A stretch of DNA of 64,000 nucleotides from Polynucleobacter sp. CS-Odin-A6 (GTDB taxonomy: Bacteria; Pseudomonadota; Gammaproteobacteria; Burkholderiales; Burkholderiaceae). Below are positions 26,793 through 34,786 of the stretch, piece after piece. The position numbers were made by a program, and so were the translations under genes. The stretch is from the NCBI RefSeq assembly GCF_018882095.1, contig NZ_JACVPD010000001.1, positions 496,001-560,000 on the forward strand, read 5' to 3'. Below the pieces are notes generated by a model. It searched no databases and was not told the DNA's origin. It saw only the letters and a list, made by a program, of their open reading frames with translations. Position 1 is the stretch's first letter. Each line of letters starts with the position of its first letter.

Positions 26793-27770
26793 TTATTCAG
26801 GTTTAATGTTTCCGGCTTTGACTACCGCACTCCATTTGGTAGCTTCAGATTTAATCAAGGCCGCGAAATCAGCTGGTGTGCCACCTCCAATTTCATTTCC
26901 TTGGGAAAGCATGAGCTCTCTGAGTTGGGGATCTTTGAGAGCCTCATTAGCTGCTTTATTGAGTTTCTCAATAATGGGCTTGGGTGTCCCCGCTGGCGCA
27001 ATGAATCCCTGCCAATTTAGAACTTCAACTTTCGGGTAACCTAGCTCCGCAAAGCTAGGCACATTCGGGAAGAGGGGAGACCGCTTCTTACTAGTAATCG
27101 CAATGGGACGTAACTTATCTGCTCTAATGCTGGGGACAGCTGAGTACATCTGATCAAACATCATATCGACATTACCAGCCATTAAATCCGTTAGCGCTGC
27201 AGAGCCACTCTTATAAGGCACGTGAATCATTTGGATTCCGGTATTTTGCATAAAGAGTTCTGCTGAAAGTTGATGGCTGCCTCCAATACCACCCGAAGAA
27301 AAGGTGAGTGTGCCTGGCTTTGCCTTGGCTGCAGTCACAATATCTTGAATCGTTTTATATTGTGAATTCGGGTTTACTACCAACATCAATGGACCCTTTT
27401 CAATCAATATGATTGGGGCGAGATCCGTTTCTGGGTCATAACGTAGCGTGCCAAAGAGTGTTTTGTTCACTGCCAATGGCGCAAAATTTCCCATGCCAAT
27501 GGTATAGCCATCTGGAGCAGCTCTGGCTACAAATTCTGTGCCAATATTACCGCCAGCACCTGGTTTGTTATCGACAATAATCGGTTGCTTTAGCAGCACG
27601 CTCATGCGGACCGCTAGTTGCCTACTCCGAGAATCAGCGCTACCACCGGCGCCATACGGCACGACTAAATTAATGGGTTTATTAGGGTAGGTCGTTTGTG
27701 CTTGCAGGGTTGGCACCGATACTAGCGCCAAGCCTATCATCGACCTGCTGAGAAGTGTAGAGAGTTTCAT
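26793..27770 (-). CDS. Bug/TctC-family periplasmic binding protein
   Basis: Periplasmic binding protein of 325 residues with a signal peptide (cleavage near TLQAQ) and the family stretches YPNKPINLVVPYGAGG and VDNKPGAGGNIGTEFVARA, then IHVPYKSGSAALTDLMAGN. Its start codon overlaps the stop of the CHR transporter half by four bases, so the two are translationally coupled. It is the last gene of a leftward unit of six. Ligand unknown. Confidence 0.92.
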   Translation of the reverse strand: MKLSTLLSRSMIGLALVSVPTLQAQTTYPNKPINLVVPYGAGGSADSRSRQLAVRMSVLLKQPIIVDNKPGAGGNIGTEFVARAAPDGYTIGMGNFAPLAVNKTLFGTLRYDPETDLAPIILIEKGPLMLVVNPNSQYKTIQDIVTAAKAKPGTLTFSSGGIGGSHQLSAELFMQNTGIQMIHVPYKSGSAALTDLMAGNVDMMFDQMYSAVPSIRADKLRPIAITSKKRSPLFPNVPSFAELGYPKVEVLNWQGFIAPAGTPKPIIEKLNKAANEALKDPQLRELMLSQGNEIGGGTPADFAALIKSEATKWSAVVKAGNIKPE

Positions 27771-28288
27771 ATGAATCCCATGGTTCCAAGGGCTGCGCCC
27801 AGTGCAATTAAGTATAAGGGGTGCCAGCGAGTAAACACTGTCAATCCAATGGTGAGTATCGTGAGTCCATAGGCAGCATAACTATGATTGATTTGCAATG
27901 CAATCTGCCAGGCTGAAGAAAGCACTAGGCCAATAGCCAATGCAGCTGCCGCATATTGGATCATCCTCTTTTTATGTTCGTCGGTCATGCTCAGAATCAG
28001 CCGTTGCAAAAAGTACACCAAAATGGAAGATGGCCAGGCAATCGCAAAAGTAGCGAGAAGAGCCCCAATGACACCTCCAACATGCCAGCCAATTAAGGTG
28101 ACAGTCATGAAGTTTGGACCAGGAGCGGCCTGAGCAATGGCAAAGTAATCTGCAAACGTTTGCAGGTCAATCCAATGCTCTTGGTAGACAGATAAATTTA
28201 AGAGGCTAGGAAGTAGCGCATTAATACCACCAAAGGCAATCAGAGAAAAGGCTGAGAGCTTTAGAAATAAGCTGATCAGGATGCTCAT
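27767..28288 (-). CDS. CHR (chromate transporter) family protein, half-size, second subunit
   Basis: Membrane protein of 173 residues with about six hydrophobic segments and the CHR signature IAFGGINALLP near residue 18 and APGPN near residue 57. I chose the ATG at 28288, which overlaps the stop of the upstream CHR half (ATGA); an earlier in-frame start would lie inside that gene. The two short CHR proteins correspond to the N- and C-terminal halves of full-length ChrA and probably form one transporter. Chromate is the known substrate of some members, but the context here is organic-acid metabolism. Confidence 0.88.
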   Translation of the reverse strand: MSILISLFLKLSAFSLIAFGGINALLPSLLNLSVYQEHWIDLQTFADYFAIAQAAPGPNFMTVTLIGWHVGGVIGALLATFAIAWPSSILVYFLQRLILSMTDEHKKRMIQYAAAALAIGLVLSSAWQIALQINHSYAAYGLTILTIGLTVFTRWHPLYLIALGAALGTMGFI

Positions 28289-28824
28289 CGTTTGCGCGCT
28301 TTTTGGTGGGCTAAAAACAAAGCAAGTGGGGAGATCATGAGCACTACCCAACCCAGATCCAGGTGAAAGTAGCTTGCAGCGATCACTGTAGCAACCACCA
28401 CCAAAAGCATTGCGGGATATCGAAACTCATCGCGCATCATTTTGATACCAGTAGAGGCAATTAGGCCTACGCCAACTGCAGAGATGCCTCTGAGTAAGCC
28501 TTGCACGCTCTCTAAATTACTGTAATGTTGGTAAAGGACTGCGAGCAACATGACAATACAGATAGGTCCGAGTGTGAGACCAAGTGCTGCAGCAAAAGCT
28601 CCCTTGGCCCCGCAGAGACGAGAACCAATACATACAGCAAGATTCAGAATATTCGGCCCCGGAACAATTTGACATATCCCTAGAATGGCGCTGAATTCTT
28701 CAGAGCTGAGTACCTTATCTTGCTCTACTAAAGTACGGCGAGCCCAAGGGAGAACTCCACCAAAACCGGACATCCCAATTTTGCTAAAGCAAATAAATAA
28801 CTCCGTTGGGGTGAGTGCTTTCAA
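28285..28824 (-). CDS. CHR (chromate transporter) family protein, half-size, first subunit
   Basis: Membrane protein of 179 residues with MSGFGGVLPWARR near residue 18 and IVPGPNILNLAV near 52, the repeated CHR motif. It is the first half of a split ChrA-like pair and overlaps the second half by four bases. It starts five bases after the 2-hydroxyacid dehydrogenase stop, so it is surely co-transcribed with catabolic genes. Substrate not proven. Confidence 0.88.
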   Translation of the reverse strand: MKALTPTELFICFSKIGMSGFGGVLPWARRTLVEQDKVLSSEEFSAILGICQIVPGPNILNLAVCIGSRLCGAKGAFAAALGLTLGPICIVMLLAVLYQHYSNLESVQGLLRGISAVGVGLIASTGIKMMRDEFRYPAMLLVVVATVIAASYFHLDLGWVVLMISPLALFLAHQKARKR

Positions 28825-28829
28825 AAGAA

Positions 28830-29804
28830 TTAGATCTTAAAGGGGTGTGGTACAGGTTTTTGATCGAGCCACGCTTCTAAAGTTTGGGTAATACCTTTTG
28901 AGAAAGCTTCAAAAATAGGTTCTGCAATAAAGCCCAAATGAGGAGTGGTTAATAGATTCGGAGTATTGCGCAGTGGATCATCTTTTGGCAATGGTTCAAT
29001 ATCAAAGACATCAATTGCAGCTTGTCCAGGACAGCCCTTTTTAAGTGCAGCACTTAAATCTGTCATATTAATGAGCGCTGAACGGGAAGTGTTTACTAAA
29101 ATAGAATCCGCTCGCATCAAAGCAAGTTGATCGGCGCTGATAATTCCCTTAGTGCCTGGTCCAGCTACTAAATGCATCGTCACTACTTTGGAAGTGCTGA
29201 GTAATTCATCAAGGCTAACGGATGTCGCATTTTCTGCGGCAGCGCGTTCGGGTGTCATGCGTGGACTCCAAGTCACCACCTCCATACCAAAAGCGTGACC
29301 AACTCTAGCAACTCGGCTACCAATTGCACCTAAACCCATGATGCCGAGCCGCTGACCAGAAAGCATTGGAAGTACGGAGAGCTCATCACGCCAGCCACCT
29401 GAGGCAATCAGTTTGTGCTCTTCAATTAAACGCTTGGATGCGCCCAAGATTAAAGCCCAAGTCAGTTCGGCAGTGGTTTCTTTAGATGGACCGCCGGGCG
29501 AACAAGCTATGGGGATATTTCGTGCGATCAATGCAGCTGCATCCAAGGTGCCATTACGCTCGCCTGTGAACATCAGGAACTTGAGCTTTGGCAATCTAGC
29601 GATCATGGCTTCATTAAATGGAGCCCGATCACGCACGATGGCAATGGCATCAGCATCTTTTACGGCTTCATACAAGGCCTCGTCACGAAGGGGCTCGTGG
29701 TGAAAGGTGAGGTTAGCGCGCTGTTCCAGATTCTCCCACTGGGAGAAACGACGCAGAGCACATTCGTAGTCACCTAAGATAACGATATTGGATTTTGTAT
29801 TCAT
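28830..29804 (-). CDS. D-2-hydroxyacid dehydrogenase family protein
   Basis: NAD(P)-dependent oxidoreductase of 324 residues with GLGAIG at 157-162 and catalytic residues Arg241 (NTSRSAL), Glu270 (DIEP) and His289 (TPHLGF). It belongs to the broad phosphoglycerate dehydrogenase-like family. It lies between MmgE/PrpD and the CHR pair in a leftward unit, suggesting oxidation or reduction of a 2-hydroxy/2-keto acid from the same pathway. It differs clearly from the paralog at 20072. Confidence 0.9.
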   Translation of the reverse strand: MNTKSNIVILGDYECALRRFSQWENLEQRANLTFHHEPLRDEALYEAVKDADAIAIVRDRAPFNEAMIARLPKLKFLMFTGERNGTLDAAALIARNIPIACSPGGPSKETTAELTWALILGASKRLIEEHKLIASGGWRDELSVLPMLSGQRLGIMGLGAIGSRVARVGHAFGMEVVTWSPRMTPERAAAENATSVSLDELLSTSKVVTMHLVAGPGTKGIISADQLALMRADSILVNTSRSALINMTDLSAALKKGCPGQAAIDVFDIEPLPKDDPLRNTPNLLTTPHLGFIAEPIFEAFSKGITQTLEAWLDQKPVPHPFKI

Positions 29805-29825
29805 AGTCTTTTCTTTGGAGTGGGT

Positions 29826-31199
29826 TTAATCTGGCGTGCAAAGGCTCAAGATCTTCTTGAGGTCAGGCGCACTTCCGATACTCCACAAAGCAGAAATTAA
29901 CTGGCGAGTTTTTTCTTTGCCAATGACTGGCTCAGTCAAGCCAATAAATTTCTGTTCTAAATTGCTATCGCTCATAGGGTTCTCGACAGATCCAATCGCA
30001 TTTTGAATGAAGATATGAACCTCTTGGCCATCTTTCAGAATTGCCTTAACGTCAATAGATGCTTCGCTGATAGAGGTATCCGTTGTAGCGTTTACTTTGG
30101 CGCGCAAAGCAACGACATCAGGACGGTTCACAATCTCATCAGCATATTCACCTTCGCCAGCCTGACCAAAAATCAGACCAACGGCACAACCATGGTAGAC
30201 ACTAAACTTGCCTTCTAGGCCATCTTTGGGTGTTTTTTTACCGGTTAATTCAAGTACTAGCGGGTGAGCGCGTAATTCAATTCGCTCAACCTCTTCTGCC
30301 TTAACCCCTTGTGCACGTAATTGAGCACAAGCATCAATAGCTGGATGAATCACAATTCCGCAAGCAAATGGTTTATAGGTATTTAAGGAAATCTCAAATG
30401 ATTTACCAAGCTCTCGATCAATTTCTGACCAATCACATTTGGTGGAGACGGTTTGCATATAGCCACGACCAGCTTCCAGGGCTTTAGAGCTAGCAGTAAA
30501 ACCATGTTTAGCTAATAGCGCAGAGAGTTGTCCGGCGCGAGCTGCGCCTCCTGGGTGAAAGGGTTTGGTCATGGTACCAAATTGCTCGCGCATACCCACT
30601 GGCTGAGAAGCGGCAATACCTAAAGCCATGGTAGTTTTCTGCACATCAAGCCCCATGAGACGTGCGCAGGCTGCAGCAGAGCCTAGCATTCCGGTAGAGC
30701 CGGTAATATGCCAACCACGATGGTAGTGGTCGGGATACATCGCATTACCAACACGACATGCAACATCAATTCCTAAAACGAGTGAGTCAATAATTTGACG
30801 GCCAGTGACATTCGTATGTTCGCCTAAGGCGAGGATGGCGGAAGCTACGGGTCCCGCTGGGTGAATGACGGTCTTCAGATGAGTGTCATCAAAGTCAAAA
30901 GTGTGTGAGCTGATACCGTTAATGAGTGCTGCACCGCCCATATCAACTCGGTCCTTCCTGCCCAAAATGCTGGCTTGAGGTGCCGGCTGAAACTCGCGAA
31001 TGGCAGCTAATGAGGATTCAACACTTTCATGGTTTGCTGCACCAATTGCACAGCCTAGCCAATTTAAAAACGTACGATGCGCCTCATGATCTACTTCCGG
31101 ACTCCAACCTTGACTGGCATGTGAGGTAACAAACTCTGCCAGTATTTTAGTCACCGGTGGTGCATTCATATCCGCTGCTGCTTGTATCGCTTGTGACAT
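29826..31199 (-). CDS. MmgE/PrpD family protein
   Basis: Cytosolic protein of 457 residues matching the MmgE/PrpD fold. HTFDFDDTHLKTVIHPAGPV, near residues 98-117, is the conserved active-site region, and FKPFACGIVIHPA-like sequence (TYKPFACGIVIHP) lies near residue 275. Known members include 2-methylcitrate dehydratase, cis-aconitate decarboxylase and iminodisuccinate epimerase. No other methylcitrate-cycle gene is nearby, so a propionate role is not supported; a different substituted carboxylic acid is more likely. Confidence 0.9.
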   Translation of the reverse strand: MSQAIQAAADMNAPPVTKILAEFVTSHASQGWSPEVDHEAHRTFLNWLGCAIGAANHESVESSLAAIREFQPAPQASILGRKDRVDMGGAALINGISSHTFDFDDTHLKTVIHPAGPVASAILALGEHTNVTGRQIIDSLVLGIDVACRVGNAMYPDHYHRGWHITGSTGMLGSAAACARLMGLDVQKTTMALGIAASQPVGMREQFGTMTKPFHPGGAARAGQLSALLAKHGFTASSKALEAGRGYMQTVSTKCDWSEIDRELGKSFEISLNTYKPFACGIVIHPAIDACAQLRAQGVKAEEVERIELRAHPLVLELTGKKTPKDGLEGKFSVYHGCAVGLIFGQAGEGEYADEIVNRPDVVALRAKVNATTDTSISEASIDVKAILKDGQEVHIFIQNAIGSVENPMSDSNLEQKFIGLTEPVIGKEKTRQLISALWSIGSAPDLKKILSLCTPD

Positions 31200-31251
31200 A
31201 GTATTTCCTGTTTTTATAAGTATTGAATGTAATCAGAATGGGTTAAAGAAT

Positions 31252-32253
31252 TTATTCCAGCTCAATATTGCGTACCTTGGCAACCTTGACCCAGCGTGCA
31301 ATATCTTCTTTTATGTAGTTAGAAAACTGCTCAGGCGTCATTGGCATCAGGGTCATCGCCTCGTTTGTCATCTGCTCAGAAAACTCGGGCATTGCTAGTA
31401 CTTTGTTTAATTCGACATTCAGTTTTTTTACAATGGCATCTGGCATATTGGCTGGGCCTGAAAGACCGTACCACTGTTGACCATCAAATCCTTTGTAACC
31501 CAATTCTTTAAAAGTCGGGATATTCGGTTCTGCTGAACTCCGCTTATCACCAGTCACAGCTAAGGCCCTCACTCGATTCGACTTGAGGTAGGGCATCGCA
31601 GCATACAAGGTAGGTAACATTGCTTGAGTTTGACCTGCGAGGAGATCGGTATAAGCAGGGCCTATGCCACGATAAGGAACGTGAACCATAAAGATGTTCG
31701 CTGCTAATTTAAATTGTTCCATGCCGAGGTGGGTTAATGTTCCTGGTCCAGCTGAACCATAACTTAACTTGGCAGGATTTTTCTTGGCGTACTCTACAAA
31801 TTCTTTTAGATTCTTAATCGGCAAATCTGGGTTAATGACGAGTGCATTCGGTGTAGCACCGATCATGCCAATTGCGGTGAAATCTTTGATGGCATCGTAG
31901 GGTAGTTTGCGTACAGCTGGGTTGGTGCCGTGGCTTCCTACATAAGAAATCATCAGAGTGTAGCCATCTGGAGCTGCCTTTGCAATGGCTTGGGACGCAA
32001 TTACACCACCCCCGCCCCCAATGTTTTCAACAATAATGGTTTGACCTAGATTTTTGGATAGCCGTTCGGCAACCTTACGTGCTAAGTTATCAAGCCCCCC
32101 TCCAGCCGCCACTGGAGCAACTAATTTAATGGGCTTGTTAGGATAGTTTTGCGTTGATTGCGCGGTAGCATTTAAGCTCACAATGAAACCCAGACTTAAA
32201 AAAATGAGGGTAGATAAAAAAATCGGCACTTGCCGATTGAGGGTATTAGACAT
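31252..32253 (-). CDS. Bug/TctC-family periplasmic binding protein
   Basis: Periplasmic binding protein, 333 residues from ATG 32253. A longer frame from 32331 would put 26 polar residues ahead of the signal peptide. The signal ends near NATAQ and is followed by YPNKPIKLVAPVAAGGG and VENIGGGGGVIASQAIAKA, with VHVPYRGIGPAYTDLLAGQ later. It is probably the first gene of the leftward unit with MmgE/PrpD, 52 bases downstream. Ligand unknown. Confidence 0.9.
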   Translation of the reverse strand: MSNTLNRQVPIFLSTLIFLSLGFIVSLNATAQSTQNYPNKPIKLVAPVAAGGGLDNLARKVAERLSKNLGQTIIVENIGGGGGVIASQAIAKAAPDGYTLMISYVGSHGTNPAVRKLPYDAIKDFTAIGMIGATPNALVINPDLPIKNLKEFVEYAKKNPAKLSYGSAGPGTLTHLGMEQFKLAANIFMVHVPYRGIGPAYTDLLAGQTQAMLPTLYAAMPYLKSNRVRALAVTGDKRSSAEPNIPTFKELGYKGFDGQQWYGLSGPANMPDAIVKKLNVELNKVLAMPEFSEQMTNEAMTLMPMTPEQFSNYIKEDIARWVKVAKVRNIELE

Positions 32254-32369
32254 GTCTGGAGTCCAGAGGAGATTTAAGATTAAGTTTCTTTGATGGATGG
32301 ATTTTACTATTGAATCGACCCAAGTCAGCATGCTGGGTTTGGTGGATAAGTCAGCTTAAGCCCCCTTAT

Positions 32370-33226: not shown

Positions 33227-34225
33227 ATGCAGATTCTATTGAAAATGGCTAAAAAAGCCTTGTTATTAAGCATATTGTTCATGACTAGTTACTCTATTGT
33301 GAGTGCTCAAACAGCTGGAGCTGGAGCTTGGCCTACCCAGAAGCCGATTCGCCTCATTGCGGTATTCCCGCCTGGCGGCTCTGTCGATCAAGTGGCGCGC
33401 ACTTTAGCCCCAGCCTTGCAGGCGGAATTGAAGCAAAACGTGATTGTCGAGAATATTGGGGGCGCATCAGGCGTCATTGGCACTGCAGCCATGACTAGAT
33501 CAGACCCAGACGGTTATACCTTTGCAGTGGTATTTGATACTCACGGAGTCAATCCAAGTCTAAAAGATAAGCTCCCCTACGATACGATTAAAGATATTGC
33601 GCCGGTCACTCTGATTGGTACCTCCCCGATGGTAATCGTTGCCAGTAAAAACTCTGGGATCACCAGCTTTAAGCAACTGGTAGAGCAATCGAAGGCTGGT
33701 AAGCAATTTAGTTACGGCTCTATCGGGGTTGGCAGTCTCGGACATTTAGCGATGGCTCGTTTGGCTAAACAGGCTGGCTTTGATTGGAATCACATCCCTT
33801 ATCGCGGCGGCGGCCCTTTGATGCAAGATATTCTTGGTGGTCAAGTCCAGCTAGCCATTGGCTCAGAATTCCTGGTTAAGCCCCATGTTGAAAGTGGCGG
33901 CATTATTCCTTTAGCAATCACTACTACCAAAAGATCTGCTGAGTTACCCAATGTTCCCACGATTGCTGAAAGTGGCTATCCTGGATTTAATGCGCCAGCG
34001 TGGTGGGCAGTATTGGCACCAGGAAAAACGCCCCCTGCCATTGTGAATGCCATGAATGCAGCAGTAATTAAAGCACTTAAGACGCCTGCTGTTTCAGCGA
34101 AATTAAAGACCCAAGGAATTGAAATTATTGCTGGTAACCCAGAGACTTTGCGCGATTTTATCGGCAAGCAAATCGGTATCTGGGGTAAGTTTGTGATTGA
34201 AAACAATATTAAAGAAACCCAATAA
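33227..34225 (+). CDS. Bug/TctC-family periplasmic binding protein
   Basis: Periplasmic binding protein of 332 residues. AAGGAGA lies eight bases before the ATG. The signal peptide ends near IVSAQ, and the mature part shows PIRLIAVFPPGGSVDQVA and VENIGGASGVIGTAAM, then NHIPYRGGGPLMQDILGGQ. It starts a rightward unit with the CMD-family gene nine bases downstream and the methyltransferase after that. Ligand unknown. Confidence 0.91.
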   Translation: MQILLKMAKKALLLSILFMTSYSIVSAQTAGAGAWPTQKPIRLIAVFPPGGSVDQVARTLAPALQAELKQNVIVENIGGASGVIGTAAMTRSDPDGYTFAVVFDTHGVNPSLKDKLPYDTIKDIAPVTLIGTSPMVIVASKNSGITSFKQLVEQSKAGKQFSYGSIGVGSLGHLAMARLAKQAGFDWNHIPYRGGGPLMQDILGGQVQLAIGSEFLVKPHVESGGIIPLAITTTKRSAELPNVPTIAESGYPGFNAPAWWAVLAPGKTPPAIVNAMNAAVIKALKTPAVSAKLKTQGIEIIAGNPETLRDFIGKQIGIWGKFVIENNIKETQ

Positions 34226-34234
34226 AGGTGAAGT

Positions 34235-34786
34235 ATGACTGAGCGTTTAATTCCTTATCAGCCAATGGATCTAGCGGAGCCCGCCGAGCTGGTGGCAGCA
34301 ATCCGCAAAAGGCGCGGTGGTCAATTTATTAACTTAGATCGGATGTTGTTGCACAGTACCCCTATTGCAGAGGGCTGGAATCATTTCATTGGTGAGATAC
34401 GCAACAACCTCTCTTTAGATCCGAAGTTGCGCGAGCTCGCCATGTGCGGCGTTGCTGTTCTCAATGGCGCTGAGTATGAGTTCTTTCATCATGCCCCTCC
34501 TTTTATCAAGGCTGGCGGTACCGAGGAGCAGGTTCAGGCGCTACGTTTAATTGGTCAAGATAGTTTTCCTGCTCAACTTTTTAGTCCGGTGGAAAACGAT
34601 GCGGCAGCATTGACATTTCAGATAACGCGCAATATTCAAGTGGATGGTGCTTTGATGAAGCGCTTACAACTTCTTTTAGGTAATACGGATACGGTTGAGT
34701 TAGTAACAGTCATCGCTGCATATAACATGGTCTCTCGATTTTTAATTGCGCTCGATGTCAATCCTGAGGAACATCCTCCCGGATAA
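34235..34786 (+). CDS. Carboxymuconolactone decarboxylase family protein
   Basis: Small helical protein of 183 residues similar to the CMD/AhpD fold: NLSLDPKLRELAMCGVAVLNGAEYEF at about residues 52-77 is the core of the domain, followed by HHAPPFIKAGGTEEQV. The CXXC pair of AhpD-type peroxidase partners is missing, so thiol peroxidase activity is unlikely. Such proteins accompany many organic-acid or aromatic pathways. It sits between a Bug protein and a methyltransferase. Confidence 0.85.
   Translation: MTERLIPYQPMDLAEPAELVAAIRKRRGGQFINLDRMLLHSTPIAEGWNHFIGEIRNNLSLDPKLRELAMCGVAVLNGAEYEFFHHAPPFIKAGGTEEQVQALRLIGQDSFPAQLFSPVENDAAALTFQITRNIQVDGALMKRLQLLLGNTDTVELVTVIAAYNMVSRFLIALDVNPEEHPPG

Follow-up and report, generated by a model that had tools for sequence, protein, structure and literature searches.

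Does a carrier of the chromate transporter (CHR) family work together with a periplasmic binding protein in Polynucleobacter? The question is raised by a stretch of 64,000 nucleotides (nt) from Polynucleobacter sp. CS-Odin-A6 (host genome 2.10 Mb), analysed here as a whole and called the window: on its minus strand, between positions 26793 and 32253, six genes follow each other in the order Bug1, MmgE/PrpD, 2-hydroxyacid dehydrogenase (HADH), CHRa, CHRb and Bug2, the two CHR genes each encoding one half of a short-chain pair (CHRab) and both Bug genes encoding solute-binding proteins of the TctC family. A preliminary description of this DNA had read the overlap between CHRb and Bug2 as translational coupling and had suggested that the CHR pair carries an organic anion, perhaps with the help of Bug2. 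We observed that this gene order is real and widely conserved; a Bug-CHR transporter is unlikely, since Bug2 and CHRab have been lost, moved and replaced separately in relatives and therefore probably are not parts of one new transporter. We consider it rather probable that the cluster equips Polynucleobacter for the uptake and use of one or several small carboxylates, with Bug2 serving a remote TctAB permease and CHRab as a separate anion carrier associated with HADH. The genes are:

31252..32253, minus strand: Bug1, periplasmic solute-binding protein of the TctC (Bug) family, heading the cluster (PF03401, 262.9 bits, open reading frame (ORF) 31252-32331)
29826..31199, minus strand: MmgE/PrpD family protein (PF03972, 239 bits; PF19305, 134.6 bits)
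28830..29804, minus strand: HADH, D-2-hydroxyacid dehydrogenase (PF02826, 168.8 bits)
28285..28824, minus strand: CHRa, short-chain CHR half (PF02417, 125.1 bits)
27767..28288, minus strand: CHRb, short-chain CHR half sharing ATGA with CHRa (PF02417, 106.6 bits)
26793..27770, minus strand: Bug2, TctC-family solute-binding protein, ATGA overlap with CHRb (PF03401, 251.7 bits)

Pfam places these proteins in the families TctC/Bug (two), Chromate_transp (two), MmgE_PrpD and 2-Hacid_dh. Order, strand and tight packing of the six leftward genes are as first described, as is the overlap of four bases between CHRb and Bug2 (a shared ATGA at 27767-27770), and the locus indeed looks like the organic-acid operon it had been taken for.

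The linkage of the two genes was surveyed in 121 Polynucleobacter genomes (E-value thresholds of 1e-130 for Bug2 and 1e-50 for CHRb), of which 98 contain CHRb and 87 contain Bug2. The genes are adjacent in 73 genomes, on the same strand and in the same order; 23 genomes carry CHRb without Bug2, 12 carry Bug2 without CHRb, two carry both but apart and 11 carry neither, so that CHRb and Bug2 are not kept and lost jointly. Even among the 73 adjacent cases there is one (G608) in which three stop codons interrupt Bug2 and CHRb is intact.

The separate losses and replacements can be read directly from the genomes. Twenty-one of the 23 CHRb-only genomes were inspected (G606 and G622 were left out): nine show HADH-CHRab with no further operon gene behind, five have CHRb followed by a TctCBA cassette (two of these, L242 and L247, with a broken TctA), one (L249) contains Bug1-PrpD-HADH-CHRab without Bug2, and six have CHRab without HADH (L228, L241, L246, L253, L256, L257). 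In several lineages the TctCBA cassette occupies the Bug2 slot behind CHRb, on the opposite strand, while CHRab stays (L062, L068, where it is partial, L070, L073, L086, L244 and L245; broken in L242 and L247). TctC, TctB and TctA were identified by Pfam in L070, and TctA by profile elsewhere; among the full-length TctA copies compared, identity is 94-100%, which argues that one cassette has spread between Polynucleobacter lineages. Conversely, all 12 Bug2-only genomes were inspected in stretches of 6.6-15 kb, where relatives of Bug2 with 66-78% identity to that of the window were found, and neither HADH nor CHRb was seen. Relatives of Bug1 (56-62%) and PrpD (68-74%) lie beside the Bug2 relative in eight of the 12; among the other four, three have neither Bug1 nor PrpD, and in one a Bug1 relative stands at the end of a contig. 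Bug2 has also moved: in G584 (L226) it follows a different Bug gene on the opposite strand, and in G624 (L213) it is far from CHRb. G089 (L157) has broken HADH and CHRb genes and a short Bug2.

A second sample of 76 Polynucleobacter loci, found via CHRb in Polynucleobacter species and metagenome-assembled genomes and sharing species with the 121 genomes, allows the neighbours of CHRab to be compared. Bug2 could be judged in 71 of these loci (60 present, 11 absent) and HADH in 72 (67 present, 5 absent). A tree was built from those 81 of 88 CHRb loci that offered at least three marker genes. On it, parsimony requires one change for HADH, seven for Bug2, 13 for PrpD and three for the TctA cassette, counts in which some tips are the same strain twice and the moved Bug2 of L226 is scored as absent. 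HADH thus is the steadiest neighbour of CHRab, and one clade has CHRab without any other operon gene. Since flanking genes without evident tie to transport also hold their position, synteny alone is weakly informative here, and losses and movements are more telling.

The overlap of CHRb and Bug2 proved to be ordinary, a minority trait inside a gene order widespread in the genus. Of 62 Polynucleobacter loci having both genes, 15 show it; in the others the first ATG of Bug2 lies 2-61 nt off (46 loci) or none is in range (one locus). CHRa and CHRb of the window likewise share an ATGA (28285-28288), an overlap present in 71 of 74 relatives, and of 38 co-directional neighbour pairs in the window, eight have an overlap of exactly 4 nt (counted on 60 of the 64 ORFs, without four that longer ORFs overlap, and with the start of CHRb set at 28288). 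The overlap behind the proposed coupling of Bug2 to CHRb is thus not confined to one strain, but only a minority of relatives have it.

Outside the genus, the CHRb profile was searched against 399 genomes of the order, yielding 120 stretches and, after removal of 13 from Polynucleobacter, 107 loci; these are the best CHRb matches among the matches listed, not a random sample, and not all of them are clean short pairs, a limitation applying to all counts on them. A Bug gene at most 200 nt from CHR and on its strand was found in two of the 107, both from one genome (G199), versus 1.2 expected by random placement, and on either strand in three (a count for which no expectation was computed). The same-strand figure is a rough one, because ORF calls in loci of high GC content include spurious antisense and over-long ORFs; one locus (L158) yielded no focal gene. 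The neighbourhood survey that had been proposed for Bug genes beside CHR therefore speaks against the idea: in these 107 loci the linkage, judged by same strand and order, recurs in unrelated bacteria near chance. Neither was a fusion found, as no ORF among 454 CHR ORFs in 257 loci carries both domains.

No dominant partner of CHR emerged when 132 of 174 neighbouring proteins from outside the genus were scanned with Pfam (42 were omitted by hand, mostly shorter than about 180 residues, two very long): the top families, histidinol dehydrogenase and flavin reductase, reach six of 132 each, and TctC two. A general theme of CHR genes residing in organic-acid operons is not supported by these 132 proteins, which were scanned without a control set. 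PrpD occurs in four of the 107 stretches, three of them from one family. Individual arrangements are nevertheless worth recording. In a family of small genomes (f17: L143, L146, L165) the CHR pair has TctA near it, and PrpD also occurs in the stretch (Pfam confirmed TctA in L146, TctB and TctC in L143). On a plasmid of Azoarcus sp. KH32C the CHR pair is flanked by a sugar phosphate isomerase/epimerase on one side and an AEC transporter on the other, and on a plasmid of Cupriavidus necator NH9 it comes after genes for an aldolase/citrate lyase and a DUF1330 protein, a short Bug gene lying on the opposite strand. In L093 (2-2271), whose CHRb is the best extra-genus match listed, a binding protein of the SBP_bac_11/6 type is encoded 36 nt upstream of the CHR pair, a single case; the family ranking next by its listed CHRb matches (L094-L099, L101) has a histidinol dehydrogenase-family gene upstream of CHRa (by Pfam individually for L096 and L101).

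If Bug2 does not serve CHRab, which permease would it serve? The genome of CS-Odin-A6 contains 30 Bug genes and only two TctA genes. One TctA, on contig C3, has TctB and TctC beside it; the other, which we call the core TctA (C2:320521-322020; the TctBA pair corresponds to L239:8519-10502), lies with TctB between glnS and alaS, and no Bug gene was found near it in the 20 kb examined. A core-like TctA is present in 121 of 121 Polynucleobacter genomes, the best matches being at least 85% identical, and the block glnS-tctA-tctB-alaS was found without a Bug gene in 20 of 20 further stretches (3.6-13.5 kb), or 21 of 21 including the genome studied here. In 14 more distant stretches TctA is 85-87% identical, compared with 71-86% for AlaS and 67-74% for GlnS; a permease having to accept many binding proteins could be constrained in this manner. 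TctA relatives at E <= 1e-150 occur in 94 of 250 genomes of the order, four of them Polynucleobacter. The core TctBA is a candidate for the shared permease of the orphan Bug proteins. As to the number of these, nine Polynucleobacter genomes of 2.5-3.1 Mb (L215-L223) gave 116-210 unscored first-look Bug candidates each, compared with 7-106 in the other genomes listed, G535 (148) excepted; a Bug expansion inside the genus, in these nine genomes, is likely.

We therefore picture the locus as follows. Bug1 and Bug2 would be orphan binding proteins of the tripartite tricarboxylate transporter (TTT) type. A periplasmic carboxylate would be captured by Bug2 and handed to a TctAB encoded elsewhere, the likeliest being the core TctBA between alaS and glnS; Bug2 is absent where a complete TctCBA has been acquired at the locus. 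Inside the cytoplasm, the acid may be processed by MmgE/PrpD and HADH. CHRa and CHRb would form one two-part anion carrier on their own, tied closest to HADH, and as to substrate and direction, our guess is that CHRab exports or exchanges a 2-hydroxy or 2-oxo acid handled by HADH.

Several observations weigh against this interpretation. Adjacency of CHRb and Bug2 is retained in 73 of the 98 CHRb-bearing genomes, and HADH-CHRab-Bug2 stands without a local PrpD in 21 of the 76 loci. Bug2 therefore does not simply belong to a PrpD module, which counts against a view of two separate modules. The bond between CHRab and HADH is broken in one clade, which has CHRab without HADH, and likewise in G611 (L246, outside the tree). 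The core TctB is only 45-83% identical (45-64% in the 14 distant stretches), far below TctA, a low conservation not obviously predicted by a model of a shared permease. The exchange of Bug2 for TctCBA could reflect repeated recombination of one cassette via conserved flanks, and not functional equivalence. Finally, the relatives in Bug2-only genomes score 511-611 bits, compared with at least 631 for nearly all of those beside CHRb, and may therefore be a sister group.

Among the other explanations, CHRab as an efflux pair for chromate or another inorganic anion, merely residing in the operon, holds up best, and we regard it as unlikely. In its favour are the good match of both halves to PF02417, the mixed surroundings of CHR loci elsewhere (no Pfam family exceeding six of the 132 neighbouring proteins) and the clade having CHRab without other operon genes. 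However, the nine window proteins scanned include no chromate-resistance regulator, and the halves score far under the NCBIfam equivalog cut-offs for ChrA and ChrB, models which describe another pair or, in the case of TIGR00937, a full-length protein (90.6 and 62.4 bits for the two halves, cut-off 171.7). Also, HADH accompanies CHRab in 67 of 72 judgeable loci, and the position of the PrpD genes in the genome points the same way. The genome holds three CHR systems: the pair of the window, a second pair (C6:6311-7323), near which no Bug, PrpD or HADH gene was found in the 14.8 kb examined, and a long CHR (C5:46110-47387), whose operon (L200:5843-12194) consists of SDR, CHR, a FAS1_DH-like gene, PrpD, an HpcH/HpaI aldolase and Bug. 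Each of the only two PrpD genes present stands not more than 4 kb from a CHR gene; the zone so defined makes up 1.3% of the genome (chance for both about 2e-4, calculated post hoc). This supports a role of the CHR carriers of this genome in organic-acid metabolism, and does not support Bug2 as a CHR binding protein. Of the organic-anion carrier assisted by a Bug protein, as originally proposed, the cargo other than chromate thus stays plausible, and the partnership with Bug2 is what separation, replacement and near-chance adjacency outside the genus argue against.

There is a slim chance that Bug2 is a facultative binding protein of CHRab in most Polynucleobacter, with CHRab working alone or beside TctCBA elsewhere, or that CHRab is an organic-anion exchanger coupled to HADH. 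Slimmer still is that of a dedicated binding protein, with CHRab importing an organic anion as a secondary transporter in the manner of TAXI-GltS. Such recruitment of a binding protein by another carrier family has a published precedent (PMC12344293, in excerpt), which makes the Bug-CHR idea a reasonable one; the conserved strand and order in 73 genomes, the overlap in 15 of 62 loci, the persistence without PrpD in 21 of 76 and the binding-protein gene of L093 speak for such a transporter. The 23 CHRb-only, 12 Bug2-only and two separated cases, the near-chance count outside the genus, the want of a fused ORF in the 257 loci and the TctCBA cassette in the Bug2 slot beside a persisting CHRab stand against it. 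That Bug2 is mainly a sensor or buffer protein, as in the Bct system of Bordetella pertussis, whose sensory role is described in excerpts of PMC5994714 and PMC5812351, is very improbable, given that the six operon genes include no two-component or receptor gene and that a full importer as replacement suggests transport.

No report of a Bug-CHR or CHR-MmgE link, nor any on TTT transporters of Polynucleobacter, was found in a search whose coverage excludes most subscription journals, and the available passages of PMC2864759 draw no link between Bug and CHR or between CHR and MmgE. A Chr protein of Thiomicrospira, tested as a transporter of inorganic carbon, failed to rescue an E. coli strain, for which the authors consider misfolding possible (excerpt of PMC12628692). 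PF02417 is present in 127 of 150 genomes of the bacterial family.

Some details of the gene calls should be added. The best start of Bug1 is the ATG at 32253, ahead of a stretch that by eye resembles a signal peptide, the open ORF extending to 32331; the N-terminus of Bug2, also by eye, looks like a signal peptide, and its TctC domain is of full length (PF03401 aligned at positions 3-273 of 274, above the Pfam cut-off). The top profile matches of Bug2 among solved structures are terephthalate-binding proteins, followed by 2dvz, 7ndr, BugD, Bug27 and 5oei. The MmgE/PrpD protein scores far under the NCBIfam PrpD equivalog cut-offs. HADH contains GLGAIG at residue 157, NTSR at 238, DIEP at 268 and PHLGF at 288, which we take to be NAD-binding and catalytic motifs. 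CHRa probably starts with TTG, 5 nt past the HADH stop. AlphaFold2 models of the CHR halves were poor and unfit for a fold search or for recognising an elevator-type fold (predicted local distance difference test and template modelling scores of 52 and 0.33 for CHRb, 60 and 0.39 for CHRa), and against the sequences of solved structures CHRb gave a single, not credible match (E 0.46). Flanking genes at the related loci are presumably CrcB, DODA, RSE, cytC and MT, labels that we assigned ourselves. Beside the operon, on the plus strand (33227-34786), a third Bug gene is followed by a carboxymuconolactone-decarboxylase-family gene; in several related loci (e.g. L022, L025, L026) no gene was labelled as a relative of this Bug3.

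The conserved CHR pair behind a 2-hydroxyacid dehydrogenase provides a practical locus for asking what CHR proteins carry where chromate is irrelevant. Should CHRab be an organic-anion exchanger, the CHR family would gain a substrate other than chromate, and should Bug2 serve CHRab, a further kind of binding-protein-assisted secondary carrier would be added. Perhaps worth more than the CHR point, the Bug-less TctBA would make the old question of the permease of orphan Bug proteins testable.

Comparison with known systems places the locus between several of them. Short-chain CHR pairs are two-gene chromate transporters, one of which is found in Bacillus subtilis. As adjacent half-length PF02417 proteins overlapping by 4 nt, CHRa and CHRb qualify as such a pair, as do most of their relatives; unlike the chromate pairs, they are linked to a 2-hydroxyacid dehydrogenase and MmgE/PrpD, and a role in chromate transport is putative. 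The TAXI-GltS case, in the excerpts of PMC12344293, is built on an overlap indicating translational coupling, on adjacency in disparate bacteria and on fusions. Like its representative in Bordetella pertussis (BP0403/BP0402), Bug2 stands directly behind, and in some relatives overlaps, the gene of a secondary transporter whose family is not known to depend on a binding protein; unlike it, Bug2-CHR showed neither a fusion nor above-chance recurrence in the loci examined, and is often separated within one genus. In Comamonas sp. E6, the precedent for our reading of Bug2, the TTT binding protein TphC is encoded in a catabolic operon and its permease TpiBA in another one (PMC8556258, PMC5812351, in excerpt). 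The CHR pair in the Bug2 operon has no counterpart there, and the partnership of Bug2 with the core TctBA is putative; what the two systems share is the protein family, the terephthalate-binding proteins as best structural matches of Bug2, the catabolic operon and the TctBA pair far off. With its 30 Bug and two TctA genes, this genome resembles the orphan Bug expansions of Bordetella and Cupriavidus, and it differs from them in that here a Bug-less TctBA, kept between alaS and glnS in all Polynucleobacter stretches inspected, is a candidate for the shared permease.

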